This document shows, piece by piece, positions 3,474-37,881 of a stretch of DNA of 64,000 nt; within the stretch, counting starts at the first letter, position 1; each line of letters begins with the position of its first letter. The stretch spans positions 744,001-808,000 of the forward strand of contig NW_026570250.1 in assembly GCF_019649055.1 (NCBI RefSeq). Direction: 5' to 3'. The notes beneath the pieces are model-generated. The model saw only the letters and a list, made by a program, of their open reading frames with translations. It was not told the DNA's origin and searched no databases. The stretch comes from Paramacrobiotus metropolitanus. Lineage: Eukaryota > Tardigrada > Eutardigrada > Parachela > Macrobiotidae. Made by a program: the position numbers and the translations under genes.

Positions 3474-6400
3474 TTAAACAACCGCCACTGTCCTTATAAC
3501 TCCATCACCATTATGTAGTGCCGATCCATTGGTAGAAGAGGGTTTGTCCACTATCTGTCCCGTCCTGTCGGCTTCCTGCTCTTGCGCCAGCATCTCCGCA
3601 TCCGGTCGGGGTGCGGCACGTTTCTGCTGTTTTGTGACGTCAATTACGGCATACTGGGTACGATCCGATGGGCGGGTGCCATTCAGCAGGGATGCGGACA
3701 GTGGTGGTTTAGGCGCAACGGCTGGCTGCGAAGCAGAAGGTAATTTGGTCAAGGCCAGATTGGCATAAATAATTCCATCGGACTGCCGATGGTCCGTCGC
3801 CTACATAAGCACACGCACACTTGCACAGCACACAAGCTTCCAGCTATCACATTTATTACACTGCAGCATGTTACGTATACGCCGAATGTGACAGCAGGTC
3901 GCTGCCACAAGACCTAATGTCGTGGGAAAGGTCAGTTTTCCGTTACGTCGCACCGCACCCCGCGGCGCGTACGCTCATGTTTGCTCGTTAGCACGTACAT
4001 GTACATAGTACTACATACCTACACATGCATTAATGCAACAGGCAAGTTTATATCGTGTTGCGTAGAATACAAAGGCTTAAAATTTAATTATATTACACGG
4101 TATTTTTGTAAAAAAAATTTTATGATTAATTTTAAATTCTGCGCATTTATAGGACATACTTTGTATGGTTTTTTCCCAAGATCCAAAGCGCGTGTATACG
4201 TTGAGTCCGTATTGGCCACTTCGCCCTTGGTCGAGCCATTTCTTTGGAAGCGTAGACTGGAGACTTTTGTTCCTTCTTTCTTTTCGCCGGCCAGATCCGG
4301 ATGTTTACCGTTCTGCTGGGCCTCCTTGACCAGTTCCGATTTGCTACCGCTGCTGCTGCTATTATTTGAGTGGGTTTCGGACACTGCAGCGCTGGCTGTG
4401 GGTCAGAAATAAGGCCCAGTAAGCACACATCACGCACGAAAATATTCTGCTTCACTGAGAAATCTAAGAGCACGTAGGTGGCTTTATGCCATAACTGCGT
4501 ATTAATAACTTGCTATAATTCGTGTTAGGTCATCTGTAAATCTCTGACATATAAATTGATAATGACGCTTTATTTGTCGGTTCTATGCGACCTCTTTTAA
4601 AATTGCTTTTACTGCTATGCCGTACCGCAACACTGCAAACGAGAACTGTTGCGTCTACGACGTGAGAGGAGCCGCTAGAATAGTCTGAACTTGCAAAACA
4701 TTGATATCAACAAATTCCTCTTGTGCTAACTTTTTTCCGGTGCTTCTGGAGCAACATAAATGAAAGAAACTTCTACTGATATCTTTGGCGCGAAAGCACA
4801 CTTTTTAATCAAGTACCGACAGTGATGTTTCTGAATTAATGTTTTGTTGAAATTCGCATTCTGAAAATTGTACAACTGAAATATTGGAAAATGGTTATGC
4901 AGCTACCTGTGGCGGCGTAAATACGATTTGTGTAAAGTAAACGAACTGAAATTCAAGCAAAAGTGAAAACGATATTACAAAACCGCACGATCTTTTGAAA
5001 ACTTGTTTGCCGATCGACACCGTGGTTAACCTATGGAAACTTACCCCGTGTAATATTACGATTGTTTTCCGGTCGACTTATGCACACTACAGCAAGAAGC
5101 GAAATGTTAGAGAAGAAAGAGGAAATGGAACAACAACATGATACGTAATGTTAGCCGGTATACCAGCAGTAGAATTAGGTTAGGAAATTTCACCGTCAAC
5201 GAAGCCCATGGATGTGCAAAAGCCGTTTATGCAAAGGAAACTTTATGAGTCAAGCAATTTTGCAGCATTTTTCACAGGCCATAGAAGTCGTCCATGAATA
5301 AGCAAAGAAGAACAGTAAAGACCATCACCAGCATGAAATATGTTTGTTGCACGCAGTACGAGACTTAAAAGAAAGAGCTCCAGATGAACTTGAAAAACAT
5401 CTCGGTTTACTGACTGATACGTTATTAAATATCCGTCAGAAAATTATTGAGTTTCCAACAGAGTGATCACAAAATGTAGTTTAATATAAAGCCTTATGTT
5501 TCACTGTGCACTCTTGACTTACAGTCTCCTTTCTTTTTCTTCCTTATACAGAGGAATGCAATTGTGGCGACGAGGGCTAAAAGTGCAAAACCACCGAGAC
5601 TTCCGGCGATGACGGCAATTAGCGTCGTGGAAAGAACGGGCGGCTTATCCTCGGTCTGCAGGGTTTTAAGCGGCAGGTAGACCGGCTGACTGAAGCCCTT
5701 CTCATTCTTGGCCATAATCTCCACTTGGTAGTCCCGCCCCGCCGATAAACCTTTCTCCAGCCACTCCGGCACCGTGACTTCCTTGGGCTCCAGTACAACG
5801 TTCTGGAATTGTCGGGTCTTCTGGGCATTGGGTGCAGCGGCGGAGTTAATGGAGCGCGCTTGCGGAACATCATCATTGCTCATGCCGCCGCCCGTTGCCA
5901 CCATATTGCCGCTGCCGGCCAGCACCGATAAGAGGAACTTTTGCGGATAGCCTCCATCAAAACCCGGCTTACACTTAATGGTAAATCCACTGGCCATAAC
6001 GGCAATAATTGAGCAATTCTCCGGTGGATGGGGCGGTCCGGCCGGGACGATGCGGTAGTAACAAGGCGTATGTGATACACCGACATGATTCTTGGACCAA
6101 CATTGCAGTCGCCGATAATCATAGGCCGACCGAACCGTGTAATTAATCGCCGAGCTTGTCATACTTAACAATGATGATAAGGAAGATGAAGCGGCTGCAT
6201 CAGCCGGTTCCACATCGGCATCGCCAACGATATCATCAGTTTTATCGGTGCTACTGGCATTCCACGTGTATGTCAGCTCTTTCAGGGGATTGGCATCCAT
6301 ACTGCAGCGGACACTTTGTTGTTGACCGGTACCGATGCCAATTAGACAGGGATTACTGGCATTCGCGCAGCGGGTACAAAATGGTCGATCTATTACATCA

Positions 6401-9400
6401 ACAGCAAATTGTCAGATGCATGACTTTCAGAAGCACCGACGAAACAATGGAATTTTACAGGATTACATGTTAGACCACACCACATGCTATAAATTTAAGA
6501 ATGCGTGGAGAGTTTGAATTGGTCGAACGAACAACTACAGTACGCACTGCCATATAATATGATAAGTTTTGAATATTCCTTAATTTATATTGAGTGCAAC
6601 AACTTAACAAGTGTAATTGCTTTGTGCAATTAATAAACTGGTTTAATACTGCCCCTTTAATAATACTATTATTATTACGATTCTTTTAATTGAATGACGA
6701 AGGGGTATGGTAATTTTGCGGAGCTTATGGTTAGGACTTACAGTGGACATCGACCTGGAGACTAATATTAGTGCGGCCCACTTCATTAGTAGCAATGCAC
6801 AAGTACTCTCCGGCATCATCTCTCGTAATATTTCGGTTGAAATAAAGTGTCGGTTCGGAACTGATAACCATCATATTGTGAATCCACACAAAATGAGCCG
6901 GTGGATTGGCATCCGCCGTGCAGTTAATACCGCCGGCCGCATCCGTCTCGGGTCGGAGGAACTCAATGAGCGACAACTGCGAGCGCGACGTCATGACATT
7001 TCGTGGAGAATCTACGTACACAACATGTTAGACACGGAAAGGATTGTATAATATGTATTTAATAACATGTATTAAGTATGCAGATTGCCCGGGCTTATTA
7101 TTTTAACCATCTGGACAGCTTTATCAGTACACGAGTCAAGTGGTATCCGTTTGAATATATGACGGGAAGATTTACATGCCGCGCGCTGTCGCTGTAGATT
7201 AGCGCAAAAATTGTCCTGCAATCGCTGGAGCTTATGTTGCAATGCGTGATTTTATGTTGATTCATGGGGAGTGGGCTCAAGTAGGCATGCTTTATAAACA
7301 CCATTGCTGTTTGCTTCCCTGTGAAAATTACCGCTAAGAGATCTGCGCCAGAGGACATTGACAGTGTTGCTACACACTTAAAAAGCAAACGTCTGTTTGA
7401 TTTCTTTTGATGCAGAAAAATGTAATCAAAGAAATAAAAATATACCCCAGAGTTCGTATATCTCCGCTGTGCTGCCAACCGCCTCGTGTGAACGGCAACC
7501 AACCAGGTATGTTTTCTTATCCCATCACCGCCATTTTCAATTTATACGATTTTGCAGATTACATAAAACTACCGGAAATTTCGGATGATTTTTTCCGGTT
7601 TGGCGACTTCATTTCAAAAGCCCGTAAAAATCGATTTGCTCTTTTGCGTGATCATTTGTTTAGAACGAACGAGTGGAGAACGAGCTTGAAGCTGTGTATA
7701 CCTAACTACTTACACGCGATGTTAAGAACCATCGAATCCGACATGATTCTTCCTTGCTTGCTCAACACTTCCTGTGTGGCATTACAGCTGAGTACTTTCC
7801 CGTTGTCGTCCGGGTTGGCGCTGTACGTGTACATGCTCCGGGTGATCGCTCCGCCGGTAGCCATCGGGATGATGTCGGTGCGAATGAACCGTGCCACCGG
7901 TTCACCATCCAGCGCCCATGTTAACAGGGCATGCGGCCGGGCATCCCACGTCTCGCACGTAATATTGTACGTTGTCCACTCTTTCAGCTGCAGCGGTTTC
8001 GATAGGGAAATGTTGACAGGCGGTACTGTACACCGGGAAGAGAGAGCAGAAATTATTTACACCAGTCGGACACGAAAGCGTTTGTCAATATGCCGGGTTC
8101 CTCTCTCATTTCCGGTTAAAAGTGTGTGTTTATATGTTTATGGACTGGCCCCACTGTGTGTATACCGATCTGCGCGGCTGACGCGTTTCGATCGGGTTAC
8201 CTAGTAAATCCAGTCTGTAGGACACTTGGACAGGATGGATGCTGGCCTCGTTTTCCGCTTGACAGATCAATACATTGCCCATCAAATCCCGGGAATCCAG
8301 ACGAAACGACAGGGCCCGGTTGACTCTCCACACACCGCTAGGGTCCATTTGTTGTTTCTGCAGACCGCTCTGGTTCTCAAGTGAAAATGATTGACCTAAA
8401 ACAGTTTACCAGATATTAACAATCTATGAAATGCTGTATCGATGAACACACGTGAAAGGGCAATTTTAAGGTTGTCATTGGTCGTTGATAATATTGTTAT
8501 TGTTCCATAGCATGTTCAAATTCGCTTTTACTAATAATTATTATTATTTTTTGTGTGATATAATACCGAAATATCAAACGTTAAATTTTCCCATTCGTAT
8601 GCATGTAAAGAATAACACAAAAAATTTAAGCTTTCATTATTTTGTAATGTAAAACCACACGTTATTCAATAACGTAACGTGCGTATTGTACACTGTGTTT
8701 GCAGACCGATAATTATAAACGAATTAGTTCTGACAAAGGAAGAGCTTATGCATATGGTCACTTATGTAGCGAATGTTGCGTAACCGTAATTTGGCAAATG
8801 TGACGACTGGAAGTCAAAATTATTAATAATAGCCAATTATACCTTCTTGATTGACTCGTAACCATTTCAACGTCGCAGGTGGCCGGGAGTAGGCAACATA
8901 GCAATTTAACTCGAACTCCGTTCCCTCGTAATACGGCCCAATCACTGCCCCATCCTCCAGGAAGGTGGTGTTGTCTGATGAAACACTCAAGCGAGAAATG
9001 ATCTGGTCAGGTGGTGCTGTATGGGATTTAAACAATAAACAGTTATTAATATGCGTTGCCGGATAATACTGTTGTGCCGCGCTGTTTACTTAACGCGCTG
9101 TACTTCAAACGGATCTATGGTCAATTTGATCTGCGAAAGTGGTTTTATAGATTAAAACAATCATCATCGATTATTTACTGGTAACTGGGCAATATGCATT
9201 GATAAGATCGCGGCATGGTCAGCGTGCGCTTCTGGTCAGTCTATATATCGCGCATCGTCCCGTTAATGTGCTGTGCACCCGATGCAGCCATAAACGGCGG
9301 AATTCGGGAATCAACTTGATTAGCATGTGATCTGATTATAACGACCTGCTTTACTGTACACTACCGTCCAACCAATAGACTGACCATAATGACCTCTGGC

Positions 9401-10637
9401 TCATAGGATCCCTAGAGATGCTGGTCTATCGTGATGAAAAAGCGATGTACATCTGATATCCGGTCAAGTAGAATGTTCGCTTTTCTAATTTGAAAAACAT
9501 ACTCCCACTGAAGAGAATGAAAAGCCGATCTATCGTTTTTGTTCCATGTTATTTGTTTGTTCTGTCGGAGCCGTGTTTATTAGATTAAGAATTTAAAAAA
9601 TTCAGAGACGTACAAAAGAGGAATATTTTTATACCCTAAAAACTACACAAATTAACAAAACGCATAAAATCTTTAGCGAGATATCAAGTAGTCTGTTTGA
9701 AATTCGCATTTTTGAAACCAAGCTGCTTTTTATTTTTATTCGGACATAAAAGTGAGCTGGGAATAATTTGTAAGTAAGCAGAAGTTTTAGGAGACCGAAG
9801 ATCAAACAATGTTCAGTTGCTACATTAATGCTAAATGGAGTTAGCGATTGCAATATTTATCCAACAATTTAAAATTGGTCATGACAGGCTTTTTTGTTAG
9901 CAAGAAAAAGCCGGCGTAAAACCGTGATTTACGAGCGCTTCCAGCATTTTTTGCATATCAATTTCCTAGTGTAAAGAGAAGCGTTACTGGGTAAAACGCT
10001 GGACAAACACTTTAATAATTAATGGCCATCCCAAGCGGCTAATGCTTTAGGAAAGAGTTTCGGTTGGGATTATTGCGTTTTGCAATTTTAAGTATACGAG
10101 TTGGCCTACATTCGCTTGACCATCGCCAGAAACAACATTATTCGGCATTTGCCAAAGCACATTGCAAAGATTTATCGGTATCACACATAGCTGAAATATT
10201 CCGGCTAACTTACCGATTACTCTGAACGATCTGGCCAGTTGTTTCTCAGCCGATACCGAACTAATTGAGCACGTATAATTCCCTTCCGCCGCAAATGATA
10301 CATTGCGTATGGTCAGTACGGATGTCCGACTGTCGACATCCACTCGCAGATCGCCTTGGAGGTCACTCAACGGATTACTGGACAATGGGATCGGAATCTT
10401 ATCACCGTAACCTTTGAGGATATACTCCAGGGTGTTGTTATTTAATAACGACTGGATGCGCCATAATATGCGAAAAACAATATCATCCGATTCCCAGGAA
10501 CACTCGAATGAAACTGTAGATGCCGGCGTTGCCGTTTCCGGTCCATCGAAATGGGCGGTTAGCGATGATGAGGCAGTTGAGGGATATAGTATTATAAAGG
10601 GGATCACAGCTATTAAGACAGACAGGAGCATCGTCAT
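3474..10637 (-). CDS. side: Sidestep-like Ig/FN3 transmembrane receptor, complete, 8 exons
   Basis: Exons (minus): 10637-10214, 9016-8843, 8395-8201, 8025-7714, 7011-6742, 6389-5523, 4395-4160, 3800-3474. They total 2805 nt, or 934 aa. The first six introns are phase 1 and the last is phase 0, and every donor is GT. The ATG at 10637 opens a hydrophobic signal peptide (MTMLLSVLIAVIPFIILYPS). Ig1 is V-like (C46, W59, C123). Ig2 spans exons 2-3, Ig3 is exon 4, Ig4 is exon 5 (CTADANPPAHFVW, EYLCIATNEVG), and Ig5 opens exon 6. An FN3 domain with the FDGGYPQKF signature precedes a helix at about 715-740 and a basic stop. Five Ig, one FN3 and one membrane helix, with the PxPPENC...FDGG linker, is the Sidestep pattern. 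In flies Side proteins are cell-surface partners of Beat proteins in axon guidance. The tail (about 190 aa) carries IIYANL (836-841) and TQYAVI (874-879), which match ITIM and ITSM consensus patterns. The family call is strong; which paralogue this is remains open. Confidence 0.88.
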
Positions 10638-13600
10638 TTTTTGTCGTTGGCGTTAGCTCCAAGACGAACTAGTACTCAGACTCCTTATGCAATACGTTCG
10701 TATTTTAGCAATTGTAAAATATGGAGAAATAGTGATAGCATTTGCTACCCGGTGAATGCTGATGATATCCTTCGTAAGAATAAAGAAACACATAATGCGC
10801 AGTCTATCGCCGTAAAAAAAGCAATGGCGGGTGATATTATTATATCCATAGTTCCATTCTACCGGTGCACGGATCATCTATTACAAATACTGCGCTGCAA
10901 ACACGGTTCGACAGAGATAATTTCGAAATTAATGTCTTCGTTAAGCGCGCGTTAAGCATTGGCGAACTATGCTTCACAACTGCACTAATTAATCCCAGAA
11001 GCCGACAAATCGTAGAATATCTAACAAGCGTGGGAACATGACAGTGCATAAAAAGCGATGGCACAATTGGAAAAAAGTGCGAGTATCTTGGTTAGCACAA
11101 TCCAATAATTTCTGTTAACGGTTAGAGATCACTATACTGTCGCGCATGAAATAGAGATTGCTATGAAACTGTGCACGACGAGTAGGCCGGCTTGTCTATA
11201 ACAGTCTTATAACGGCACAACGAAGAAGCCGGTATCTTTTCGCGGTCTGTAACAGTACGTAACAGTCACAAATGACCAGCTGGGCTGGTAAATCAAGGGG
11301 AACATATCTCTTGATAACTCAAATCTAAAATTATAGCTGCCCATACACTGCGCTTGTTTTCCCATAGATTTTCAAGGCCGTTCTAATCATGATCATATTC
11401 GATAAATTTATGCTTGGCAAAACATCACTCGTCGATCTCACGTTTGCGAGGCTGGCAGTGGTCACGCCCAACAAGATGACAAACAAAACTAAGTAAACGT
11501 TATCATAACGCCAATTAATTACAGAAGAATTGAGCGCTGAACGGAATTAAAATCATTGTAATCGACGCCGTTAAAAAATGGGAAAAGGCTCACTATTTTG
11601 CCTAGCATAAACAAACAGCTCTTAATGACCGTGGATAACACTGCGGGATAGTAGACCGCATTTCATGACCGTTCTGTGCAGTGCATGGCAGTACGTATTC
11701 ACAAAAGTCAGACTTCTCAGATTAAAGATGTAAGTGCTAATATCCCATAATATCCCTGCACGACAAGTTTGATTTGTGTACTGCAATGTATCTGTACACG
11801 AACGGCAACGTCAAAATTGACGCGGCAGCATCACCAGCTTAACATCCTTTTTACAGCTCTAAATAGCTCCTTTTTATCATGGGCGTGCGTTTGGTCTGGG
11901 ACTTTTATTGTTGCTTTATATATGGGAATCTTGCATGTCACTTTCGATGCTTAGCGTTTGATTGTATCTAAAAAACAATTTAATTGATGGATTTCTTCAG
12001 TACCATTATGACCGTTAAGTTGAATGCGGCTAGCGGAACCGGCAAGTTTCCTTACAGCTTCGATGCGGAGACATGCAGATTGTCGAACGCCGTGCTTTGC
12101 ACTCTTGTGGGTTAAATAAAATGTTTTACTGTTTTCATTAATCAAATCTTGACTATACAAATCTAACCATAAGGATTGCAAAATTTGAAAATTTTCACCT
12201 TGTTTTAAGCAAATAAATAATTACAATATGTAAAGCCTGTTCAGACAAACGCAGAAGTAGTCAAAACTATAGTACCTTATATTTTAATCTTCTAAAATTA
12301 TGAAATAAGATTGCCACTTCCGAATAGAAAATGTTCAAACTATTTCAAATCTTTTTAAAAAATAGAAGTTTTTTATTGCAAATAGAAAGACTTCAGGCGC
12401 GATAACAAGGGCCAGCAAATGGGTCAGAAGAAACAATCAATTTCCCCAAATTTCCATGGCACACGCATTTTGCTCGAGGGATTTGAGGCAATTATCCGAG
12501 GGAAGTGAGGAGAAAGCAATAACTAAATTACCTAGTTGTTTATGCAAATTTGAACACAAAGAGAAATTGTTTATCTTTGATAAAGCTTTACATTATAGCA
12601 GCTTTTGAATAATTGCCGAATACCGTACAATCTTCGTGTTTTGTTATATTGTTTAAGATGAGCGTACGCACAAAATGGGATGAAAGGTTGCACAACTGTT
12701 TGATTGATCGAAAATATCCGGAGCAAAACGACCATTTAACTTTGCTACGGGTATGTTGCGTTCGTTCTCATGCAGGTATTTTGTGGTTATCTGTGAGAAA
12801 AGTTAATTGCTTAAATGCACGTTTCACTTGGCAAATAGGCTTCCATTAGGCGATAACGCACTTATCAACGCTAGCACGAAAATCAGTTTATTATTTTATT
12901 GTTTCTCAAGAAAGAATTACATTAGCGGCATGGATTTATGAAGCAGGCTATCCATACATTGTACTCTGTACATCGCAATTTATTGTAGCAAATTGCTTAC
13001 AAATTTGAAATTAAAGATACAAATAATTTCCAAACACGTTTGCACCAGAATCTGTTCACATGTACTACTTACTGGTCGAGATTAATGTGTATAGATCGTT
13101 TCATTCGTACTACGATTCTTATTTTATGTTTATATAGCATTCATATCTTAACAGGGGGGTTTGAGCAAAAAAGTTAATTTTTTCTTTAAATCTCAGTGCA
13201 AATTTGTTTTCATTCGGACAACTTTAGAGTTGTTACGGCTGGATACAAACTTCCCGTTAACACATAATACAGATACTTTTACCCTGTACACAGCCAACAG
13301 AAGCGCCTGCGCCACCCATGAAAAACAACAAGAAAAAGCAAACTTTATCGCACACATCCATCACCACATGTCATTTATGATTTGCAGCCTGAATAATGTA
13401 AGCTTATCTCAAGGATCAAAGACCTACGACCATGCTGCAATCTTCCCAGTAGCCAGGAAACATGCCGCATCAGAGACGTAATCCATCTTCCCAGCAATGG
13501 TCTATACACAAGGCGTGTTAAGATGGAGTTACCTATGCACAATTTTATTTTATTTGAAAAACACAGCAGACGACCTTTCATGACATCCAGTACACACTAA

Positions 13601-15411
13601 TGTGAAATTATTGATAGTTCCCTATCGTTTGCAGTTTTCTTGTCACATAATAGTATGTATAGAGATTCGTGAATGTTACGCTACGCATACATGCGCCAAA
13701 GTAGCTAACAATACAAGTACGGATCTCCAACGTAAAAATGCCGACTTGCAATACAAGCGTATCACCGAAAATCAGCCACAAAACAAAGGAGGTTCTGTCA
13801 GAATCCTGATAACCTTACTTTGAAGAGCAAAATCGTAAAGTAGAAAGTGCGCGATAGCATTACTTTTATGAATCTGTTTACCTTAATGCGGGCGCCTTGT
13901 TGGTACTTTGCATAAAGGAAATTTACGATATTTAGACAGACGTGAAAGGAAATTTTTACTGCTACGTTTCCTACATTTCTTTTAATTAGCGAGAAGAGAG
14001 GCAAAATGTTGCTCTCATACAGCTTTACGTCATCAAACTTCACAAATAATTACGTTATGATTTTCCAGAAATTAACCAAGGACACTATTTCAAAGAGTTG
14101 AATAACAGCAGCGTCTGTTATATATGGACATAGGCAGCTCGTTTATGGTCCTTCCGGATCGCCGGAAAATGCACAGCTACTTGGACAACGACAACTGAAA
14201 CACGGTCTAAAATTACCGATTAGCATGATTTTGTATTTGGACAGAATTTATTATTTTAATAAGATGGATGCAAGATTGTGTTTCTTGACCGGTAGCAAAG
14301 CTAAAATTAGCTTGCAGAAAACTGGTAAATGCAAATACGTTCAAAATCGGTACAGAGTGTGGGGGTGTGTTTGATATGCATATTTTATAATTATATCATA
14401 TTTGTACGAGTAGTGAATCTACACACAAATGCACTCAATAAAGCTTTCTTATTAACGCACACCAACAGTGTGGTGATAGTCTACGTACAACCAAAAGAAT
14501 TTCACATTAACAATATCCTTTATTACACGGTAATTTACACCCGTATAGGAAAAAAAGCGGCCACTACTGTAAATTGAATCAAACTATTGTAGACTAAATT
14601 AGTCATTTATTTGTGCAACTTTTGTTTCCAGTTAAAGGATTAATAGTTTACCACTGAACAGCTATATAATTAGCGCTTCTAGATCTGTTTAACTGAATTG
14701 TGTGGCTACTGTTTACGCAGCGCTTGATAAATGATTCCGGGCGTCTGAGGACACTCGGTTAATTATACGATACTGCTTTGCCACCTCATATGAACTGCTT
14801 AAGAATGAGAATGATTCAACAACCCACTTTGCTGTTTATTGACATTTTTTAAAGAAATTAGATTCAAAATTTTACATATTATTTGCAGATACCAAATTGT
14901 TTACCATAACATGTAATTTTTTTGCGATAAACTTAGGTGAAGCTCTTATTTTGAATAAGATTTCGTTTTTCTACAGGTGAAAGGTACCTTAGTTTCAAAC
15001 ACAATGTAATACGAAATCAGACAAAACTCGATAGAAACGTTCTTACGGGAATCCATACGATTTTTCATGTTATGAAATTCAGTTAATTTGGGCACCATAA
15101 TTTCTGAAACTCAAACGATGATAGAGTGGTAATACAATAGAAACAATGTTGCACAATAAGTTTTGGATTGTTTTTCTGCTCTTTTGGAGCCTACCGCAGT
15201 TGTTCACGGTAAACTTACTCCCAGCAAAATGCGAATGATTCACAGGTGATGGTACCTATACACGGTAGAGTATTGATATAAGGTGTTAGAAAGTGGCCGA
15301 ATCCATGTGGTCAAGCCAGCTGTTCTAATTTAGTCAAGCGATAGTGCGCAATTTACCCCATACCACAATGAGCTGCTGCTGGTTGTAAACTGTAAAACCA
15401 AGCAGGCCGGC

Positions 15412-15606
15412 TTGGGTTGTCTGTGGCCGCGCAATGTATATGTGGACGATGCGCTTATGATGGAAAAGGGTGCTAATCCTATTGTCCGCGAGCTTGTTAA
15501 AAGATGGATTGATCGTCGCATTAAGAGTCAAAATGGGCATGACCCAAAGTCGCCAGGCAATCGACAGATAATCACTATTTCAAAATTGGCTTGTAACGTG
15601 GCTGCA
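15412..15606 (+). pseudogene. Unassigned coding-like fragment
   Basis: A 65-codon open stretch has a balanced, protein-like composition (NVYVDDALMMEKGANPIVRE, then WIDRRIKSQNG). It lies in an otherwise AT-rich region and has no visible splice partners; an AG occurs just upstream near 15400. It may be an isolated exon or a mobile-element remnant. I do not recognise the family, and the open frame could be chance. Confidence 0.2.
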
Positions 15607-18600: not shown

Positions 18601-18988
18601 AAGCGCTAGAACGCTTTGTATAATAAAGTTTTTTTTGAGCGATTAATAAGCAAGTTTCAAAGGCGCAATAGCACGCGTAACTACACTAAGCACAATACCA
18701 TAGTAATCCAATCATGTCGTCTTTGTTTGAAGACAGGATATTATTTTTGATACAATTTTATCGCTCACGTTTGGATAAAAACAAATTTATCAAATTAGAG
18801 TTAAAACTTACAAATTCGTTGTTGCGCACTTAAACGCTGATTTTGTAAATGAATTGCTGTATTCACACCGTCGTCTAAATAATACAAAGCCTCCGATACA
18901 TGTGTGCTTGTCAGATGAACTTAGCGTCATGTTACAGTTTCCAGATGTTCCCGATTTTATGGGAACATTGTTTGTCACTGCGGGAGCA

Positions 18989-24979: not shown

Positions 24980-25414
24980 TTAATTACTGAAAATTTTTCC
25001 GGTTTTCCGGCAATTGTACGCCAAATGTACCGGTAACATAGCATCCAACCAGCTTTTCCTGCAGTTAAGGACATAAGTTGGTGTCGGAAGGTCGACGGTG
25101 CTACGGATGCATAAAAAAGGAAATTTGTACGAACTATCGAGAAAACACTTGTGTGATAATGAGCGTAAAGCGTCGATAAACATTTTGTACCCCAGTCGAG
25201 GTATATATTTCCGTTGTAACCACAGCGCCGCATCCACCGTTGTCGAATGCCGAATGGTCACTCGGCTGCTGATTGGCTGGCATTGACATGTATCCACCTC
25301 TTGCTGGTTTCGCGCTCGATCTGTTGAAGCATTACAGAAATCAACGATCCATACGTTGTCTATACCAACCAGCACAGGAATGAAATCTCCGCTTTCATAT
25401 ACCCTCCAGTCCAC
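24980..25414 (-). pseudogene. Possible piggyBac-type transposase C-terminal remnant
   Basis: An unbroken minus-strand frame of 144 codons starts at 25414. The stretch VDAALWLQRKYIPRLGYKMF followed by a hydrophobic/aromatic segment resembles the MGGVD..D.....Y part of piggyBac-like transposases. The WRVYESGDFIPVLVG stretch before it could correspond to the W.D...V..LS motif. The YN..MGG signature itself is not intact. It ends within 235 bp of the Beat-like start codon, so this strand could alternatively be 5' regulatory DNA with a chance open frame. The family call is tentative. Confidence 0.3.
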
Positions 25415-25648
25415 ATATGCTCGTCAGTTCCGTTAGAATTATGACTCTATCTCTCGAAAATTCTTTCATCCTTTCAAGCGCAAATCGGTGATTCCGCGGA
25501 AAATCTGGATGCCCTTGGGTTCTTCTTGAAAACCTTTTAAAACTTCGCATATATAACGAAGAAGCTTGCTTTGCTGCATTGTTTATGGTGGTCCAGTGAC
25601 CATTTGTCTATGGATCTATGAGTGTGTAACGGAAATCGCCTGTCCACA

Positions 25649-28600
25649 ATGTTCCGACTACGGTGGTCACTGAAGCCATCGTGCAGTATTATTATTCTCT
25701 CGTTTCTCCTTGCATACTGCCGCCTGCATTGTGTTGAAGGTAAGCCAGTTTGCGGTACGCATTTTTTCCTTGGCGGATAATTTTATTACGGTATTGACGT
25801 GGTGATTCCAAAATACCTATGTGCTCATACAAACATGCACACAGCACACGATCGCAAACCGGAGCAGCACAGGTAGAACCGCGCGTGTGTGTGGACTCAA
25901 TGTCTTTTCCTTTAACAGCACTGTTTGTTCAGCATACTATCGATCTTGTTTCATGCTGATGCTGCGGCTGGTTGCAGCATTGGAAATACCGAAAATGCTA
26001 AAAAATTAGGTCACACCGGATGGAAAATCAGGGGTACAATGCCTGTTTTACCGTTTGATAAAAGCCCTTCTGACTGTATACGGTGCACAGCTTCCACGCT
26101 TTAATGCACAGCAAGCACTAATGAAAGATACCGGTAGCTTTTTTTTCTCTCCATAGAATTATAAACATCGACCTCTAATTAGTGAGCCGTATGAGAAATG
26201 CGGAAAAAACTCCCTTGCTCACTGATGCTTTTTTGCCCTATGAGATCTGAAACGCTCAAAGTGTATACCGCAGTGATGCTGCTGCATCTGTGTTGATTAA
26301 ACACAGTGTCTGTCGGCTATGAAGAAAGGGCGTATCCGTCCCGGAAAAAGCGTAGCGCTTAATCTAGTTCGTCGAGAGGGGAAATTGCTGTTCTCTGGTA
26401 TTATTAAAAACAGCACGAGTATACTCCTCCCTGACATTGTGCAGAAAAGCAGAAAACATGCTGTTCATTTTTGTGCATAAACATAAATTATCAGAGGAAC
26501 AGCGGTTTTTTACGGGCGGTCATCGGCGCGGTACCGGCTAACTTGGTCAGTTGGTTAGCATATTGTGTCTGTTGTGCAACGAGCAAACACCGGCAAAATC
26601 TATAGACTCTCTCTTGCTACAGTATGTACCAAAGCAAAAATTAGCGCAGATTGCCTGTGTACATAAACGGTTTGCGAAACGGAAAAGCCAGGCAGTGATC
26701 CAATGGATTACGCGAGGATAATAAGCAATTTGTTCTAATGATGTGTGTGAATACAGAGCACGGGGCTGTGTGCACGCCTAATTAAATTATCGATTAATGC
26801 CCTAACATATTTACAGTATAAGAATTTTTAAATTTTCACCCAGGCTCCTGCAACTGAGAACTGTGCACTTTGGAAAATGAGAAAACAAGGTGCTTTTTCC
26901 GCTTAGCGTGTGCGTGTGTAGGTGTTTGAGCATTCATGCACGGCTACTTGACCGGCAGCCCTCGGAAAATTAAAACAATGCCGATATAATGCGAGCTCGA
27001 TTAAGCCGAAATGGCGGAGGAGGATAGAATAAAAATGAGCGATCTGCTGCTGGTGTAGGTTGTGTACATTAAGATATTTCGCTGGCCACAAGAGGCCACA
27101 GTGGCGGAATTGTCGAGTTGTGTACAGATATCTGATGTGTGTTCTGCTGTTGTCTGCTGTCCGTAATGTCCTTATGCCGTACGAGCTGGGCTGTTAATCC
27201 TCATTATTGATTATGAAATATGCTTGGGTATCGTGTTGGGATTAATGGAAGTGAAGGAACAGGATTAGTGTCGCTTTCTTTTATTGACTCTCTACAGGCT
27301 TTCATAACGAAAATAATGACCGGCAGTGTTAGGTGCTGTAGAAATGATCGGGGTCCATTGTACGGCTACGTACACTTGATGATACACTCATCCACCATCA
27401 AACTCTACATACTCAACTTTAAAACCATCATAACCCATTCACACAATAATGGTTTATGGAATTACATATTCAGTCGGGAAATTGGATAGTATCTAATAAA
27501 TTTCTCTTATAAGATTTAATTGTGAATATCCTTTAATTATTTTCAGTTGGCGTCTTTTGCCAGTCAATGGTTTTCTCTTAAAAAAATTCAGAAAATATAC
27601 TGTTTTTGTGCGTTAGTCATTGACAATGTCAATTGATATAGCATGGATTTTTTATTTTATAGAGGTGCGGTCTTGATTACTGTTACATCACGTAACTTAA
27701 TCCATAACTGCTTATTTGAGCTGGAATTAATTGTGATCCCTGCGAGGCAGCGGAAGACACACCGGCGCTTTTCCGCACAATTAAAAATAATTGAGCAAAA
27801 CCGGCAACGTGCTGGCTACGGATGCGACTGAAAGGTTCCTCAAAAGAGGTCCCATAGAACAAAAAGATTTGCACAACAATTTGTGAAAAGAGATGCGTAA
27901 GGATCATGAGAAGTCCTTGGTGAGAATATTCCCATCGACATGAAAAACGCACAGCGTGCCATTGGCCGCGCTGTGCAGAGCGCGCGGAGGCCCGCGAGTG
28001 TACTGTTGCAAATAATAGGAAGCAGTGTCGCGTGGCTAAGTGTCATTAAGCTGCGCACTCCGCTCCGATAATTGGAACACTTTTCCTGCATTTTACACCA
28101 TTTCTCCTTTAGTCCTGAGTGGCAGTAGACAGTCTGGTGGCCGTTTCCCGAATGGTGCTCAATAAAGCTGGCACGGAGCGCGGGCCGGATATATACTGGC
28201 AGCCGAGCCGATTAACGGTCAGTTGCCGGGTGTGTGTCCAGCGACGTGCCAGACGGATTAGTCAGTGGTATGTATGGACGTATGGATGATTACATAAACA
28301 TACACACACACATGCCAGGTTGCGTCTGCAACACTCTCCTGATCGACTGACTCAGTTTCCTCCTCGCGCGCTAGTCGACACTACACACCTATTCAGGATG
28401 CCGGATAGGGCCGGGACGGGAGAAGGTTTCCAGTCAATATATATTGCGTGCCAAATAAAGTGACCGGTTGCTGTGTTGATGGGGTCGGCATTATGGATTA
28501 CGGCTGGTGTGCTGGTGTGTTGATCATTAATGAACAAAGCGCTGCTTTATTCAGCACCTGCTGTTTTTCATTGTTCGACTCATTATTAATTTATAAAAAA

Positions 28601-31600
28601 GTTTGACAGAGTTCACGTTAGGGTTAACTCCTCTGATTATAAACAGTATGTTCAAGTTCTCAGGCAGTGATGCGAATGACTGATTACCTAACTCGTCGAA
28701 GCTTCCTTTTATCGCAGTATATACCCATACAGTCGTACTTACGGGCGTTTAAAGTTCCGATGAAACTGTCCCGGGCTGCTCATTAAGACCTAATGGAAAA
28801 CGCAAACGATAATAACGAATAATCTTTATTGCTGCTGCAGATATTTGCCGGCTGCGATGGGCTTGAGATTTGCCTGAAACATTTCCTTACCTAAATTCTG
28901 CAGCTAGTACTTTTCTTTTGTTTGATTACAGGAAATTTTAATGGTGAAAACAAAGTACAGTACTTCTATCGTGGAACACGTTTATAGTTTAGTAAATAAT
29001 GTCTACAGAATCATAAATTGTTTGACAAATTTATCATAATTGATGTTGGTGATTAATTAAAAGCCAAAAGAATATTTTAAGTTACACGTTACAACTTCAT
29101 TTTAAACTATTTTATTTCCTCTACTCAGGTAGTCTAGTACGAGTAACTGTTCGAGTTTGTAAGTCTTCCCATGCTACCGGAATTCACATGTGACTTCAAG
29201 TTTTTTTGCGGTGCTCTAACCACTTGCAATAAGCAAACATGTCAGTGAGTTTAATCGACAGTTTTAGCAGCTATCAACGGCTTAAACTGCGAACCCGTTC
29301 ACTGGTCATCGTAAGCGTAATGGAGCATGAAGTTCAGTGTTCGTTTTTGATATGTACGACAGTTGTCATCCTTTTACAGTCGTGTGCTAAAACGGTTTCT
29401 GGATGGCATAGTTCACGAAAAAATGCAACAGTGAATTTGATCTTTTTAACCCCGAAAGAAAGGAACGATGGTCAGGAATGTCAAACTGGCACCAAAATAA
29501 CACTGTCAAAGTCATTTCGAATTGCCGGCAAATTGGTGCTTGCTACTGCCCAGCCTAATTATTAGTAGTCATGCGGCTAATTCTTCTATAGCATCAGTGC
29601 TGTTGACTGCATGAGCAAAACTCTAATAACTGCAAAAAAAACAACAGTTGTTACGTGCACGGCAAATAAAAATATATAAAAGCACGAAAATTTTAATAAA
29701 TCGTTAAATATAAGCATACAATTTTATCCTGTAGGAGTCGCTGTGTTTTTTCATAATTCCAATTTATCATTGCTGGATACATCACTAATGGTCGACGATG
29801 TACTAAGATTTTTAAAGGATCAGCCACGCTACGCACTGCAACAGCGCATCCTTCCGGTAGCACTTGAAGAGCCTAAATCTGTTGCAGGTGAACAAAATAC
29901 CGTCTATGCTATACTGGGAAGTCCTGCCATAATCTCTTGTAATGGTTATGATGCTGCGAGAGCCAGCGGCGATAATTCCACGGGCAATAACGTCACTGAG
30001 ATCTTTTCGGTGCGATGGTTCAAAGATCACCAGACCAGCGACTATATTGTCTTCACCTTCCTGCACATGTTCTCCCATAAAACCATGATGCCCCAGAACG
30101 AATGGAAGGACAGGAATATTACCTTCGCCATCCAGGATCAACCGCAAATTCGATTACCTAACGTGACCTTTAAGGATGAGGCAAATTACATTTGCGATCT
30201 GACGCTATCGGCAGGCATTAAGCCGATCGTATCGGAAACACGCTTGAAGGTCGTAGGTAAGGTTGTCGGATAAACAACTTTATAAATAAACCTACGTGTG
30301 GTGGCTAGGTATTGATTAAGATCATATCAATATTCATTATCAAAATATGATGTTTACTTGTGTTTGTTGCGCAGTGCTTTCTACTTGTTCATATGGTAAT
30401 TCCTTCCGGCAGTGTACGGAGTACTACAATTTAACCGGTCAATGTGTTTTTTCATCGGGTTGTGCTTTACCCATCTCATTCTAATAATATTTAATTACAA
30501 TTATATTGTATGAAATAATTATAGACCATAATTATTTTTCCGGATAAAACCTTATTTTTTTCATGAGAATATTGCTTTCAATGCTTTGGTATCATGTTCT
30601 GTCAAAAAGCACATGCACAGCTTCCGTTGTTTTCAGGTTATTACGTAATACTCAATTTCTGGCTCGTACGTAGGCATCACATCATAATAAACATGCAGTA
30701 TATAGTTGTACTTAATCAGGGCACAACACTCGTATACTGTACTCCTCTTAAAGATCATTTTTTTAACTATTTTCATGGGTTTACATAAATTAACTGGAGC
30801 CAAAAAGTGCTGCACTGATACGTTGCAATACCAAGAACTGGGATATAAACACGAATTAAAATAGGCCACCTAAATAAATTATTTTGATCGCAACAGACTC
30901 ATGTCCTCCATTAAATACTTAATTCGTGGTGACGGTTATTCCAATTAGAATTCAATTCTAATTTTGCTAAGTTCACTTTTCGTCGCCCGAATGTTACGTA
31001 ATTGAATTATATTACGAAAAATTGTCTATAAGCAGAGAATCTGCATGGGAGCAATTTCCCAAATAACACTTTAAACATTAAAGCTTTTAAAAGCAGTCGC
31101 ATGGGTGGAGTAGCGTCTAATCATGATAATGATGACTTTTGTGGATTAGTGACAAAATGATTAATGGGCGGTTTGACTGTTGATGTTGGTTGCAGCTTGT
31201 CCGGAAACTGTTGATGTGGCCGTTATTAATAGCACGTCTCCCGGTCCGGCAATGGTTGAGAAAAGTGGGAACAACAACAATAACATCACCAATATCACTT
31301 TATCATCCGCCACCGGCAGTACACTGACATTTCTTCGAGGGACACGCATAATGGTGCGCTGCTCGGCGGTATCGTATCCGGAAGCCGGGATCAGCATTAG
31401 TATTCCTGGCCTGAATTTGTACAAACCTGACTGGGAAAATTTGCGGGAAAGCCCGGGAGATCATGGTTATGTACAGCGGACACTGGATGCCTGGTTCACA
31501 TTGGAGGCAGCGGACAATCTGCTGCGCAGTAAATCACTTACCATTGATTGTAAAGCCTCAGTGGCTAATGGGACGTGCGACAACACCAGCTCGCTCAGCA

Positions 31601-34600
31601 TACAGTTCCTCCTGCCCACCACAAGTAAGTTCATCAGCCCAATTTTAAAACACTGCAATTAGGGACACTGCGATTTTGATTCCATAAGGCAGCATGCCAA
31701 AGAAATTTTAAGTTCCATTACGGCAGTTATACACATAAATAGCGCGCTGAAGTGTTTCGTGATTTTCTGGATCTGTACAATTTTAATCGGATGGAAATTT
31801 TAACCCGTTAACCTCAAACTGCATATGGACTACTCGTCATATACAACGTTGTGCTCATACTTAATAATAAACTTACATTTAAATTCATATCTTAATAATA
31901 AACGTTTTTTTGAAATTTTTGTTGTCTGGTTTTTTGTTTGCTATTTATTGGATAGCCACAAAAGTGTACGAGGTATTATATTTCTTGACATTATGAGAAG
32001 AACAGGTTTATGTATATGAATTTGTTTATTGTAACAGGTGATTTTTATAAGCCTGATTACTTTTGTTGTAATTAGTGGTTCTTTATAAGCTAGCTGACGT
32101 AATAATAGTGCAATGATCTAATCTGTAGCAACGGCTACAACAACAACTACTACTACGACCACTACAACTACTACGACCACAACTACGACTATCCCTCCAG
32201 TTGCGGCTAAAGTTTCGGCAGCTAGCTCTGCTTCTGATAAGCCCACAACTAAAGGTCCGAATTCTGGTGGTGAAGGGAACACTCTTTCCGGTCTTGTGCT
32301 GTTGGTTACCTTCTCTCTATCTGCACTTTTCCTTTACATGCACTCTGGAACTCTTCACTAAATAACATCACCGGTTGCACACTGCATTTCCGCGTTTCAC
32401 ATCGAATTTTTCATATGCCACACTAGATGTTTTTCGACGCACCGTTTCCGTTTCACTTTTTGCACCAAATTCACCATCGTCTATATAGTATCCAAATCAA
32501 TCTGGGTACTCAGCATAATATTGTTTACCATGTCCATTGTTTTGCAAATAATGATCACCACACCGTGGATATAATTTCGGATTCTGTCCAGAAAGATTTT
32601 ATGTGCTTTAGAAAGGCTAGTTTCATCATGGCTGGATTTTGGTTTATCACCTAATCATGCTTAGCGATAGTCTTTCAAACATTTTATTAAAGTTATAAAC
32701 TATGAAATACAAAGTAGTACCCGCTATCAGAATACAGCTATAGCCTATACCAACCCTCGTCGTTTCCTTGTGGATAACAGGAAGTGCAGTTTACCGGCTA
32801 TTATGCCATCTATGTTTGCTTAGTGCTAATGCTCACTGAAACAGCGCAAAGCTCCATACGATGCACCACATACTCTCACAGGATAAATCAATTATCGAAT
32901 CGTCACTTTAGTTAATTGTATCGTTTTTTGATGCTGTCAAAGCAGTTGATTACTTTGCGAATGGGTATTGACTGACTGATGTTGTGTTTGCTGGGGGCGG
33001 CTGATTTCTGCACGCTTGCTTGTTGTAGCACGCTCCGCTTGCGCAATCTGTACATTTCTCGTCTTCCTGTTCTTTCTTTTCATGACCATCCCCGCGCTAT
33101 TCTATCCTTCTCCACATTTTTTACTTAGTAAAATTGTTTCAAGGATCATTACTCTTTTCAGTGCGTTGCAGATAGCCGAAAACAAGGCGCTATGTTATTT
33201 GTAATATTTTTATTAATAATTTTTTGCATTTTTTATTGATGAAATTACGTTGAAATGGCATTTTTTGAGCTGCCTGGTTGGCAACAACTTGGTAAACAAC
33301 CATTGTATTTTGTCCCGTATTGTCAAGCTTTCTTGGGTTTTTACAGAAGCTTTAAGAAGTAGCGCGACGGCATTGGTTAACAGCGACGCCGGTAAGTGCA
33401 TATAGAGGATACACACTTTTTCCTAAAAGGCCTTAGTCAATACTCGAACAAAATCGAAACGGCAATGTTTATCCACAACGATCGGGTATATCCCTTTCGA
33501 CTGCAACCAGAAAAATCAATGCCCATAGAGAAGTCAGTTAATTGAAAAAAGGATCTGCACGGGATAACCTTGCCGCCCACACCGTAAGCTGTGTACCGTG
33601 TGGCTCTGTGCGCCGGCACTGTACTGCATTGTGCACTCATTGCTATGAACTGACGCCGGGCGTCGTCGAGGCAGGGAGAAAAAGCTTTTTAGAGATTTGC
33701 TATATATTAGAGGAGTGGATTCAATCGATCCCATCTTGCCTTGATCACTGCTCCCGTTACCTCGGCATTGGGTTAGTGTGGAACTAAGCCAGATGCTGGG
33801 AATGAAATACCGCGCACATATACAAAGCACACACACTAGTTCTATATCATGTATGCGTGAGGGTCCGCGCTGCATCTGTTGACCTCGTAAGAAAAACGCC
33901 AATAATCTTCCAAAATGCTTTTACTGTGTAGCTTTGTTGTTGTGCTAAGTACTGCTTCTTAGTGGTTTCGATGGCGGGGAAAACATTTTCTAACCCGGCA
34001 AACGGACAGAGTAAAGGCTTTGCATATAGTGCCTTTTAAGGCCGAAATCAGGCTTCCGAACGGCATCGTGCCGAGGTCAAAGAGACATTTAATAGAGGGT
34101 ACCGGCAAAATGTTCTCAACATGCGTTCTGCGTGTGGAATAACATGCAGAGTTATTATTCATGGCGTATGGAAACTGTTCAGATGCTTGACAGCTTCAGG
34201 CCTTGAAAATGGCAAGGTTACCGTGGTTTGCAGCTGTGTCTGCATGCATGCTGGCAGTGCGGTAGTTGGTCAATCACTTTGAAATGTCCATTACGTTTTG
34301 CTACTAAAGTCAGCAGTTATCGCGTACGCATTAGCGCTTATCGATATTACATTTGTTATAGTAAATGTTTATTCCTATCTTTACCAGGTGTATTAGTTTA
34401 TACAAAATGGTTGTTTAAAGCGCGATACACAATGGTTTTAGAAGATTTAATAGTAATATATACATCAGAAATCAAAGTGCACTAGACAATGTAGACATTA
34501 GCGCTAGACATTAATATGCACTATACGGAAGCAATTGTTTAATTATAAACTTTACGAAAACAAGTACATAGTGGCGGGATAAATTAAATTTTGCTTAAAT

Positions 34601-37078
34601 GTTTGAAGCCAACAACCAAATAAAAATGCTAGCACTTCAGTTGATACTGATTAATAAAAAACAAGGAATTAAAAAGTTGCTTCTACATACGCATATTTCC
34701 ATTCATATATTTCTCTTTTTCTTTTTAGTTACTCATCGCAGTAGAATAAGTAATGATTTCAGTAAGTGGAATGATTGGCTATCTTAATTTGACTTGAAAG
34801 TTTGGTGTTTGCTGCTTTGACTATAATAGGAAAACCGGCAACAGAAGATGTACTGAGTAATGTTTGCACCCGTGCGGCTACAAATTTATGATCATGGATA
34901 TAAAACGGGATTTACAGATTCACATCATATATAACATTAAGTAGCCTGTTATTTATTGCCCAAGAATGACTCAGGGGGCACCCGACTGACCGTCCGAGTA
35001 AATCCTCTTTTAAAATTGATTGTTCCAACAACCAGGCTGCTTTTATACCAAGTAATAGATGCTAGCACTTAAGAACACAAGGGTTTGCATGTTTCAAAAT
35101 TTTAATCGTGCCCAGAATTGATGGAACGATAGTCAGCTGTTGGCACTTAAACAATATCGTATGTGGCAATAAAACTCAATTTCTAGCGTGATTTATTGTT
35201 CGAACAAACTATAACGGCACGTAGTCGGAGAACTGTATCAAATTTAAAAGTGATTTCTATTTAAAGCGTCTTTAGTAAATGGAACATCATGAATGCCTTA
35301 AGTGTTTATAATTTGTCGATTTTCCCAACCATGTCGTTGTGTATGTGTGCACTGGTGGTAATTAAAGTCACAGCCGATCACAGCAATGGGTGACATCCAA
35401 AACATATACATTTTCTATCTTTGCGTCTTAAGCACGTTTATATAGTATAATATTTAATTATTTTAAACAGGTATGAAAACAATTTAAAACTTGAAAAATC
35501 CAAAATAGCATATTTACTGTAGTAATTCTTCCGAAATCAGAATAATTCTGCCGTCACCGAAGCGCTATAAGCCAGCCTTTGATACAACGCGTACGGTACT
35601 TTATGTTTACTTACATGTTCGAAATTTTTGCGGCTACAATGGTTGGTATATTATAAGCGTAACAGATAATAGATAACATTTAGATAATATAGATAATAAA
35701 TATAGTATAACAGTAAAATTTCAGTTTTAGTAATATAAGAATTTTAGCAATTTGGCGGTTGTGTTTGCTTTGTCAACTTTCGGGAAGTCGCGTTTAGCAA
35801 GAATATGCAACAAATTACGGCAGCTGTTGTTTATGTGTGGCTGAATCTTTTTTAATTTAAAATGGATAGAAGTAGGTTAATTTAATATGACAACTATGAG
35901 TGTAGCGTACTATTAGTGGGCCATAAAAGTGTCGAAGCGATTACGTTACAAGCGGTCTGTTTGAACAAGAAACATTTGGCTGCCCCTTAATGTTCATTTA
36001 CCGTCAAAATCTTATAACGTTATTTTGTGCTTGATGGAGTTTCATGCGGCATTAAGAGCTTGTCTGTCCAATTTTGTTTACATTGACGGTTGATGTTACT
36101 CTTATAACTCTTAACTTTTCAAGTGTTGTACGATCCGGTAAAACCCAGACCGATTGACACAGTGCGCTACATCCTGGAATTCCCAAACCGGCAAAAAAAT
36201 TCGCGCATTCTTTCCACCATCTGAAAGTAGTGAAAGGCATCTGGCTGTCATTTCTGAAACCGTCAAACGCATCTCTTGATTCCAATAGACTCCACTGTCC
36301 CTTAACTGACCACTGTCCACCCATCCATTATTAATTATGCTGTTACAGTTTTTGATTGCTACTGGAAAAGCGTTTGTTATTCTTATGCGTTTATTACCAG
36401 ATCCTTAATTGAATAATTAACTCATAATTGCGAAAGCTATCGGTTCAAAGGCACTTCAATACCCTACACAAGCAGCACTTTCACACAATTAACGTAATAT
36501 AAATGGAAGCAGCCGTTTCGCGAGTCACGAGAAGCGCAAAGGGGAAGCGATAGCCATTTGAAAAATGGATGATACATAATATCGTTTCTGACAAGTAACC
36601 ATATGGTTGAGAGCATTAGAGCCAGAGTTATTAATTATTGATTTAGTCCTGACATACAGTATACGAATACCTGGTAAGCCCGGCATCATAATGTTACTCC
36701 CAGGAGTCCTGTCCTAATTTCTATACCATATATCGCCACATACGTATATACATACATATATACCCCAAGCGTATACGTTGTATTGTACTTACGTGACGGC
36801 TTGATCCGTCTGTTCGTTGGCCGATATACAAAATACCTACCTGTATTTTATCTGACCAAACAGCTATAGTTTTTGCCCGCTTGATGTATTGTTTCTTTCC
36901 GGCTTTTGTAGAGACGTCAATATTGACCGGGGGATTGACGAATGCTCAAATTGCGGGGATCGTTATTGGATGCCTGATCGCCGTATCCCTCATTGGCGGA
37001 CTAGTGTACCTGGCATTACGTCAGACCAATAAAGGTTCTACAAAAATTGATCCCTCTCCTAGTCAAACACCTACCTAA
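25649..37078 (+). CDS. beat: Two-Ig secreted/membrane protein, Beaten-path-like, with alternative 3' ends
   Basis: Core exons: 25649-25739 (signal peptide, LKPSCSIIILSFLLAYCRLH), 29735-30256 (Ig1) and 31196-31624 (Ig2). All junctions are phase 1. Ig1 has Cys in IISCNG, Trp in FSVRWFKDH, and DEANYICDLT. Ig2 has MVRCSAV and a second Cys in SLTIDCKASV, with N-glycosylation sites. The VRWFKD...Y motif and the LTIDCKA segment after a variable Ig2 core match what I remember of Beaten path proteins, which bind Side receptors in fly motor-axon guidance. With the exon at 36912-37078 the product is 402 aa with helix IAGIVIGCLIAVSLIGGLVY and a short tail. With 32129-32361 it is 424 aa with a GPI-type end; with 37703-37881 it is 406 aa and soluble. 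The Ig call is firm. The Beat assignment is an inference, strengthened by the neighbouring Side-like gene. Confidence 0.75.
28190..28223 (+). promoter_or_regulatory. Candidate TATA + initiator core promoter
   Basis: TATATA at 28190-28195 is followed by TCAGT at 28219-28223, placing the initiator A 31 bp after the first T of the TATA. That is the canonical arthropod spacing. AGACG, the downstream-element consensus, begins at +31 rather than the usual +28. It lies in a GC-rich patch inside the first intron of the Beat-like gene, 1.5 kb before the Ig1 exon. No first coding exon for such a transcript was found, so it may drive an alternative 5' end or be chance. Confidence 0.35.
32129..32361 (+). 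CDS. beat: Alternative terminal exon: Thr-rich stalk plus GPI-anchor-type C-terminus
   Basis: The acceptor ATCTGTAG precedes 32129 and the exon enters in phase 1, matching the donor at 31624. It encodes an almost pure threonine run of about 18 residues, then IPPVAAKVSAASSASDKPTT. A small-residue NSGGEG site follows, then a hydrophobic end (LSGLVLLVTFSLSALFLYM) and seven final residues before TAA. No basic stop-transfer follows the hydrophobic stretch. That is the layout of a GPI attachment signal, with a mucin-type O-glycosylated stalk likely. An ATTAAA polyadenylation-type hexamer lies at about 32686. Known fly Beat proteins include GPI-linked and secreted members. Confidence 0.8.
33029..33204 (+). 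CDS. Candidate further terminal exon with hydrophobic segment
   Basis: A good acceptor (GCTTGCTTGTTGTAG) precedes 33029. The frame entered in phase 1 from 31624 is open for 58 codons to a TAA. It encodes RSACAICTFLVFLFFLFMTI and then a mixed polar tail. It could supply a second membrane-anchored end to the Beat-like protein. The hydrophobic composition of T-rich DNA can mimic this, so transcript evidence is decisive. Confidence 0.3.
34729..34761 (+). CDS. Candidate 33-nt cassette exon of the Beat-like gene
   Basis: A strong polypyrimidine tract ending TTTCTTTTTAG precedes 34729, and a perfect GTAAGT donor follows 34761. Entry and exit are both phase 1. It can therefore be inserted between 31624 and any of the terminal exons without changing the frame, adding ITHRSRISNDF plus one split codon. 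If used, it would lengthen the juxtamembrane stalk by 11 residues. If the donor is skipped, the frame runs to a stop at 34787. Confidence 0.45.
35662..35706. repeat. AGATAATA-type simple repeat
   Basis: Four imperfect AGATAA(TA) units in an AT-rich intron. It is a minor low-complexity tract with no further structure. Confidence 0.6.
36912..37078 (+). CDS. beat: Alternative terminal exon: transmembrane end of the Beat-like protein
   Basis: A pyrimidine-rich acceptor (TTTCCGGCTTTTGTAG) precedes 36912 and phase 1 entry matches the donor at 31624. It encodes a short extracellular linker (TSILTGGLTNAQ), a single helix, then LRQTNKGSTKIDPSPSQTPT and TAA. An Arg directly after the helix and a polar 20-residue tail are typical of a type I membrane protein with a very short cytoplasmic end. 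It contains no tyrosine motif. Confidence 0.75.
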
Positions 37079-37702: not shown

Positions 37703-37881
37703 ATACCTGCAAAAAGTCAAATCCTTCCCAAGGATATTGTATATCTGCAGCATCGGGTAAGGAGAAGAAGAAGCACAGCAAGAAGGATATCTCACATCCC
37801 AAAGCTATAACAGCATACCCACCAGCTCCCTGCCCAAAAACCGGCTCCGTTTCCTTTGTTGACGCTTCTGCACTGCTTTAA
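37703..37881 (+). CDS. beat: Alternative terminal exon: soluble Cys/Lys-rich C-terminus
   Basis: The acceptor CCTACACAG is followed by a frame that enters in phase 1 and runs 59 codons to TAA. It encodes TCKKSNPSQGYCISAASGKE, a lysine-rich stretch (KEKKKHSKKD) and a Pro-containing end (PPAPCPKTGSVSFVDASALL). There is no hydrophobic anchor, so joined to the Ig2 exon it would give a secreted form with a basic, possibly matrix-binding tail. A second in-phase AG (CTGCAG, 37752) would shorten it. It could also be a cytoplasmic tail reached from inside the transmembrane exon, but the donors there are poor. Confidence 0.5.

Follow-up and report, generated by a model that had tools for sequence, protein, structure and literature searches.

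The closest described counterparts of the locus examined here, a stretch of the genome of the tardigrade Paramacrobiotus metropolitanus, include the Side and Beat families of Drosophila. According to PMC5578738, members of the Side family have an invariant ectodomain of five immunoglobulin (Ig) domains and an FNIII domain, together with a transmembrane segment; the same paper reports no clustering among the side genes and describes the Beat genes as clustering among themselves. In PMC9743010, furthermore, fly Side is given as a protein of 939 residues, fly Side and Beat are described as meeting through the outermost Ig domain of Side, and a cysteine-rich region is described for fly Beat. No report of a linked beat–side gene pair was found in the literature on Beaten path, Sidestep and tardigrades, of which our coverage was partial; among the papers listed, a single one, on spider embryos, mentions both tardigrades and Sidestep, and the one paper that combines tardigrades, the Ig superfamily and axon guidance is on the fly.

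The DNA analyzed (the window) comprises 64,000 nucleotides at positions 744001–808000 of contig NW_026570250.1 (C30), in an assembly of 169.8 Mb and 533 contigs. An earlier note on this DNA had described a five-Ig/FN3 Sidestep-type gene on the minus strand and a two-Ig Beaten-path-like gene on the plus strand, diverging from a 15-kb interval. We favor, with a probability of about 0.7, the reading that a tardigrade Side gene stands here beside a separate, lineage-specific two-Ig gene, in the ordinary gene order of an Ig-rich stretch, and that this is not a Beat–Side locus. As far as the sequences allow us to judge, the plus-strand gene is not recognizably a Beat, and a receptor–partner gene pair is not supported.

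The minus-strand gene and the Side family

The minus-strand gene was resolved into eight exons running from 10637 to 3474, with all splice phases in register and a product of 934 aa, in which a signal peptide, five Ig domains, an FN3 domain, a transmembrane segment and a cytoplasmic tail follow one another. This is the plan given for the Drosophila Side family in PMC5578738, and the length is close to the 939 aa that PMC9743010 gives for fly Side. Exon 1 (10214–10637) contains the start codon, the signal peptide and a diverged, V-like Ig1, and ends at a GTAAGT donor in phase 1; Ig2 is divided between exon 2 (8843–9016; first part, IGPYYEG...) and exon 3 (8201–8395; second part). Exon 4 (7714–8025) encodes Ig3 (C2-set_2), exon 5 (6742–7011) Ig4, and exon 6 (5523–6389) Ig5, FN3 and the transmembrane segment, while the cytoplasmic tail is encoded by exon 7 (4160–4395) and exon 8 (3474–3800), the latter ending in the stop codon. 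In the Pfam search, Ig_3, Ig_2, C2-set_2, I-set and ig were over the cut-off, and V-set (E 1.3e-4) and fn3 (E 0.043) were below it; the FN3 domain was positioned by alignment to a Side sequence not taken from a database.

That non-database sequence also served as the yardstick of family membership. The Side Ig2–FN3 query was written after the minus-strand gene had been read, and is weaker than a database sequence. It aligns colinearly with residues 165–619 of the minus-strand protein, the best domain having an E of 5.4e-42 when 1,204 sequences of a local set are searched. When the whole genome was searched with it, the top match was exon 6 (E 3e-16, 40% identity), and the runner-up among the 54 matches was a generic Ig sequence (E 1.8e-7, 26% identity); apart from the minus-strand gene, no clear Side gene was found in this genome. 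The strongest Side-like stretch is in exon 6 and reads CWSKNHVG..PC..RIVPAG.P.PP.NCS..GFDGGYPQ.F. A sister query written in the same way (Side Ig1–Ig2) matches Side-IV in the PDB at E 5.9e-39, a check that covers Ig1–Ig2. Membership in the Side family is supported by the domain architecture together with the colinear Ig2–FN3 match to this non-database yardstick. The five-Ig/FN3 gene model proposed earlier was confirmed, and its resemblance to Sidestep was found over Ig2–FN3 as measured against this query.

The best PDB match of the minus-strand gene is SYG-2 (E 2.8e-13), and a nephrin-like identity was considered as a candidate. About 20 kb past the window end, at C30:826–832 kb on the plus strand, lies a multi-Ig gene that also encodes FN3 and a transmembrane segment and that we take to be nephrin/echinoid-like. 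Against the non-database Side query, exon 6 of the minus-strand gene scored E 2.2e-20 and the best exon of this neighbor 1.4e-8; with the five-Ig/FN3 plan, which is unlike that of nephrin/SYG-2, the candidate was rejected.

In contrast to Ig2–FN3, which is kept, Ig1, the counterpart of the partner-binding domain in flies, appears to be strongly diverged. It has neither RCRVDF nor PIY..D.R, which are common to fly Side-IV, VI and VII, and no Side chain was present among the 60 of 78 PDB matches listed for Ig1–Ig2. In a small hhalign panel, fly Side Ig1 gave 58% with this Ig1, and two further V-like sets from the tardigrade gave 90% and 89%. The minus strand of contig C60 also has two V-like Ig genes in tandem (261.5–262.2 and 264.2–265.2 kb), whose first domains are near-identical by eye; the pairwise Z with Ig1 of the minus-strand gene was 11.9 for the first of them and 3.1–5.4 for fly Side. 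AlphaFold, given this exon in single-sequence form, returned an unusable model of Ig1 (predicted local distance difference test score, pLDDT, 38.8).

The protein would serve in recognition at the cell surface as a single-pass receptor, in which five Ig domains and FN3 are combined with a tail that has two tyrosine motifs. If the fly proteins are a guide, the outermost Ig domain would be the one that contacts a partner. Both motifs are in exon 8: IIYANL resembles an immunoreceptor tyrosine-based inhibitory motif and TQYAVI an immunoreceptor tyrosine-based switch motif. When the tail was shuffled 5,000 times, 72 of the shuffles reached two such motifs, a frequency to be read with the motifs having been picked after the tail was seen. 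Recruitment of an SH2-phosphatase by the tail is conjecture.

The plus-strand gene and the Beat family

The plus-strand gene encodes two Ig domains, each in a single exon with phase 1 at both ends: a V-like Ig1 in exon 2 (29888–30256) and a C2-like Ig2 in exon 3 (31196–31624), the latter lacking, by eye, the Trp that would be expected in its C strand. The predicted exon 1 (25649–25739) supplies a putative signal peptide and was the sole candidate to pass a signal-peptide and donor filter applied over about 19 kb. Downstream of Ig2, one possible end (32129–32362) encodes a Thr-rich stalk and a hydrophobic C-terminus that looks like a glycosylphosphatidylinositol (GPI) anchor by eye, and another (36912–37078), phase-compatible with Ig2, encodes a transmembrane segment and a short tail; a further tail exon at 37751–37881 is doubtful, requiring a weak donor near 37034. 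The splice phases suggest that GPI-anchored and transmembrane forms may be made by choice of the terminal exon, and the product would be a lineage-restricted two-Ig surface protein, likely held at the membrane in one of these two ways. Pfam gave only a sub-threshold V-set match (E 0.0023), and the Ig1 exon modeled by AlphaFold as a single sequence was again unusable (pLDDT 36.1).

The only close paralogue is on contig C41, with 39% identity. This paralogue of Ig1, at 431 kb (L001 8918–9331, L002 1–267), is accompanied by a partial second copy of degenerate appearance; no match to Ig2 was found there, and the surrounding ORFs (open reading frames) resemble multi-pass receptors by eye.

In its general plan, namely two Ig domains in a secreted or membrane-bound protein, the plus-strand gene agrees with Beat, and it shares two Ig domains and possible alternative membrane ends (read from the phases) with Drosophila Beat-Vb and Beat-Vc. 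No sequence similarity to these proteins was detected, however, other than that of generic Ig domains. While fly Beat-Vb and Beat-Vc are both held in the PDB (9np7, 9nsf), no Beat was found among the 17 sequences retrieved with the plus-strand ectodomain at E up to 10, nor was there a Dpr or DIP chain among these 17 matches; a profile of the plus-strand and C41 sequences yielded neither Beat nor Side among 18 PDB matches. A Beat profile, built from Beat-Vb, Beat-Vc and a non-database Beat-Ia, placed the Ig1 exon 5th of 1,202 ORFs (E 0.81) and 7th of 1,930 (E 1.3), with at least four unrelated Ig exons scoring higher and all scores near chance. With hhalign, the probability of a match to Beat was 17% for the plus-strand and C41 sequences together and 3–5% for the plus-strand sequence alone. 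For Ig2 of the plus-strand gene, the Z was 0.5–1.3 against Beat Ig2, less than the 2.1 obtained against an Ig exon of C30 that is unrelated to it, where Ig2 of Beat-Vc and Ig2 of the non-database Beat-Ia gave about 23 with each other. Invariant Beat positions such as EF.RY.P and CEVS.DAP.F are not kept in Ig1, and a Thr-rich stalk is encoded where PMC9743010 describes a cysteine-rich region in fly Beat. Neither Ig1 nor Ig2, according to these comparisons, would qualify as Beat-type in sequence. Of the two-Ig, Beaten-path-like gene put forward in the earlier note, the two Ig exons are confirmed and the likeness to Beat is not supported.

In genome-wide searches, fly Beat-Vc had no match, and the non-database Beat-Ia had one match only, to a generic Ig sequence at E 0.75. 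Because an empty search alone shows little, Dpr was used as a positive control; Dpr/DIP is likewise a two-family network of the Ig superfamily, and Dpr-like exons are recognizable in this genome. Indeed, a 73-aa Dpr-like exon had six fly Dprs as its top PDB matches (1.5e-16 to 9.2e-11), and fly Dpr1 found exons on contigs C5, C3 and C447 at 1.8e-14, 7.5e-11 and 2.7e-8. Detection of homologues across the fly–tardigrade distance hence appears to work for Dpr. We also looked for a better Beat in 20 stretches chosen from 125 V-set matches in the genome, other matches being examined only in loci already retrieved, and the Beat profile found no convincing Beat in the 20 stretches (best E 0.025, probably noise).

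The Dpr-like exon of C5, with fly Dpr matches as low as E 1.5e-16, lies within 2391800–2393800, and the copies on C3 and C447 are nearly identical by eye. Contig C33 has two divergent V-set exons about 30 kb apart (177 kb, minus strand; 207 kb, plus strand), matched by fly Dpr1 at 1.1e-4 and 0.04; these are presumably DIP-like.

Gene order and competing readings

The pair spans 3474, the stop of the minus-strand gene, to 37881, the far end of the last possible plus-strand exon. The two genes are arranged head to head with start codons at 10637 (minus) and 25649 (plus, predicted), 15.0 kb apart, so that the coordinates, the orientation and the 15-kb spacing of the divergent pair described earlier were all borne out. 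Ten ORFs of the window were scanned with Pfam, and the five located in the interval between the start codons (10638–25648), namely 16939+, 18100+, 19303−, 24983− and 13152+, showed no family over the cut-off, the shorter ORFs of the interval being outside this test. A distance of 15 kb exceeds an ordinary shared promoter, and we see no reason to infer one here.

How special this adjacency is depends on how Ig genes are distributed. A census starting from 129 places, taken from listed genome matches with the window genes added by hand, gave 57 Ig loci; the clustering counts from it are lower bounds, as one of the underlying scans scored 150 of 486 candidates. At least four neighboring pairs were within 25 kb (0.47 expected) and at least nine within 60 kb (1.13 expected). 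The window pair is itself one of the four close pairs, having been added even though its plus-strand exon is below the Pfam cut-off, and three remain without it; two of the four have both members on the same strand and may each represent a single gene that has been split. On C30 alone, four Ig loci lie in the stretch from about 748 to 850 kb. Ig genes therefore cluster in this genome, which makes the linkage of the window pair less striking than it appears, and the adjacency would be ordinary gene order within an Ig-rich stretch. The Ig locus at C30:849 kb lies beyond the nephrin-like gene. On contig C21, two Ig loci with ORFs of equal length diverge from each other about 32 kb apart (576 kb, minus strand; 608 kb, plus strand), probably as an inverted duplication.

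Should the plus-strand gene be a genuine orthologue of Beat that has diverged very far, the locus would be a Beat–Side pair after all. No better Beat candidate emerged from the genome searches described above, the minus-strand Ig1 is itself diverged and hence its partner could be too, and SVRWFKD and CDLTLSAG of the plus-strand gene look loosely like SVKWYKD and CEVSGDAP of Beat by eye. Given the loss of the invariant Beat positions, an Ig2 without similarity, profiles with no preference for Beat and the ease with which Dpr homologues were found at the same distance, we nonetheless regard this orthology as rather unlikely. Several points do weigh against the reading that we favor. Fly Side-IV Ig1 finds nothing in this genome in spite of the Side-family gene present there, so that a strongly diverged Beat Ig1 could escape sequence tests in the same way, and the positive control consists of a single family, Dpr. 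On the minus-strand side, the Side yardstick may be contaminated by the prior reading of the gene; Ig1 is nearer to the tardigrade V-like domains of C60 and C82 than to its counterpart in fly Side; and with a Side Ig1 profile it came 9th among 1,202 ORFs (E 0.61), behind the plus-strand Ig1 exon (4th, E 0.023).

Another possibility is that the plus-strand Ig1 was derived from a Side-type Ig1, either by local duplication of its neighbor or from an older Side-like gene. In the small hhalign panel, the plus-strand and C41 sequences together did best with fly Side Ig1 (86.5%, E 4.6e-6, against the 17% for Beat), and the pairwise Z of the plus-strand Ig1 was 4.6 with the minus-strand Ig1 and 4.6 with Side-IV. 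The probability for Side drops, however, to 23% with the plus-strand sequence alone, the joint profile reached only 9.9% with the minus-strand Ig1, and its 18 PDB matches are the ones that held no Side chain. Among 1,930 ORFs, moreover, the Side Ig1 profile ranked the plus-strand exon 14th; since the 13 ORFs above it are mostly Ig exons, its Side score is read as a generic V-set signal, and a Side-derived Ig1 is unlikely. As for a linked, co-evolving receptor and partner in which the partner is no Beat homologue, the adjacency, the surface-protein architecture on both sides and the divergence of the outermost Ig domain of the Side-family gene next to a kept Ig2–FN3 would all be in keeping with it; Ig genes cluster in this genome anyway, and we consider such a pair very unlikely. 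That the plus-strand gene encodes a partner of Side in any form, Beat-derived or newly recruited, with outer Ig domains that co-diverged and a linked pair inherited as a unit, seems improbable to us. A Side-family gene next to a separate lineage-specific two-Ig gene is thus the reading that we retain.

Other observations and significance of the locus

Elsewhere in the window, the peptide HWLNGQTQSVE.LAPDYI recurs in two successive ORFs of the same frame at 1819–2436 on the minus strand, apparently as a repeat in tandem; of these two ORFs, one was run against Pfam and had no match. A trypsin-like protease exon (PF00089, E 3.3e-12) lies at 48704–49426, also on the minus strand. A non-database CAHS1 query had 20 matches in the genome, the best with 65% identity (E 3e-69), and the best homologue is at 31.6 kb of C30, the same contig as the window; CAHS proteins are not known outside tardigrades, and these homologues mark the genome as that of a tardigrade. 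Among the V-set sequences, an exon at 147–149 kb of contig C118 resembles, we assume, Turtle/IGSF9, and a single-exon ORF on contig C89 (L020 658–1527) seems by eye to open with a signal-like sequence and to close with a GPI-like hydrophobic end; it has one V-set domain.

If the neighbor were truly the partner, the two halves of a recognition code would be found together in a single locus, which is not supported at present. The presence of a Side-family gene in a tardigrade would mean that the family had arisen before arthropods and tardigrades diverged, a conclusion resting in part on the non-database yardstick; with one clear Side gene here against eight in the fly, furthermore, P. metropolitanus would make a simple system.

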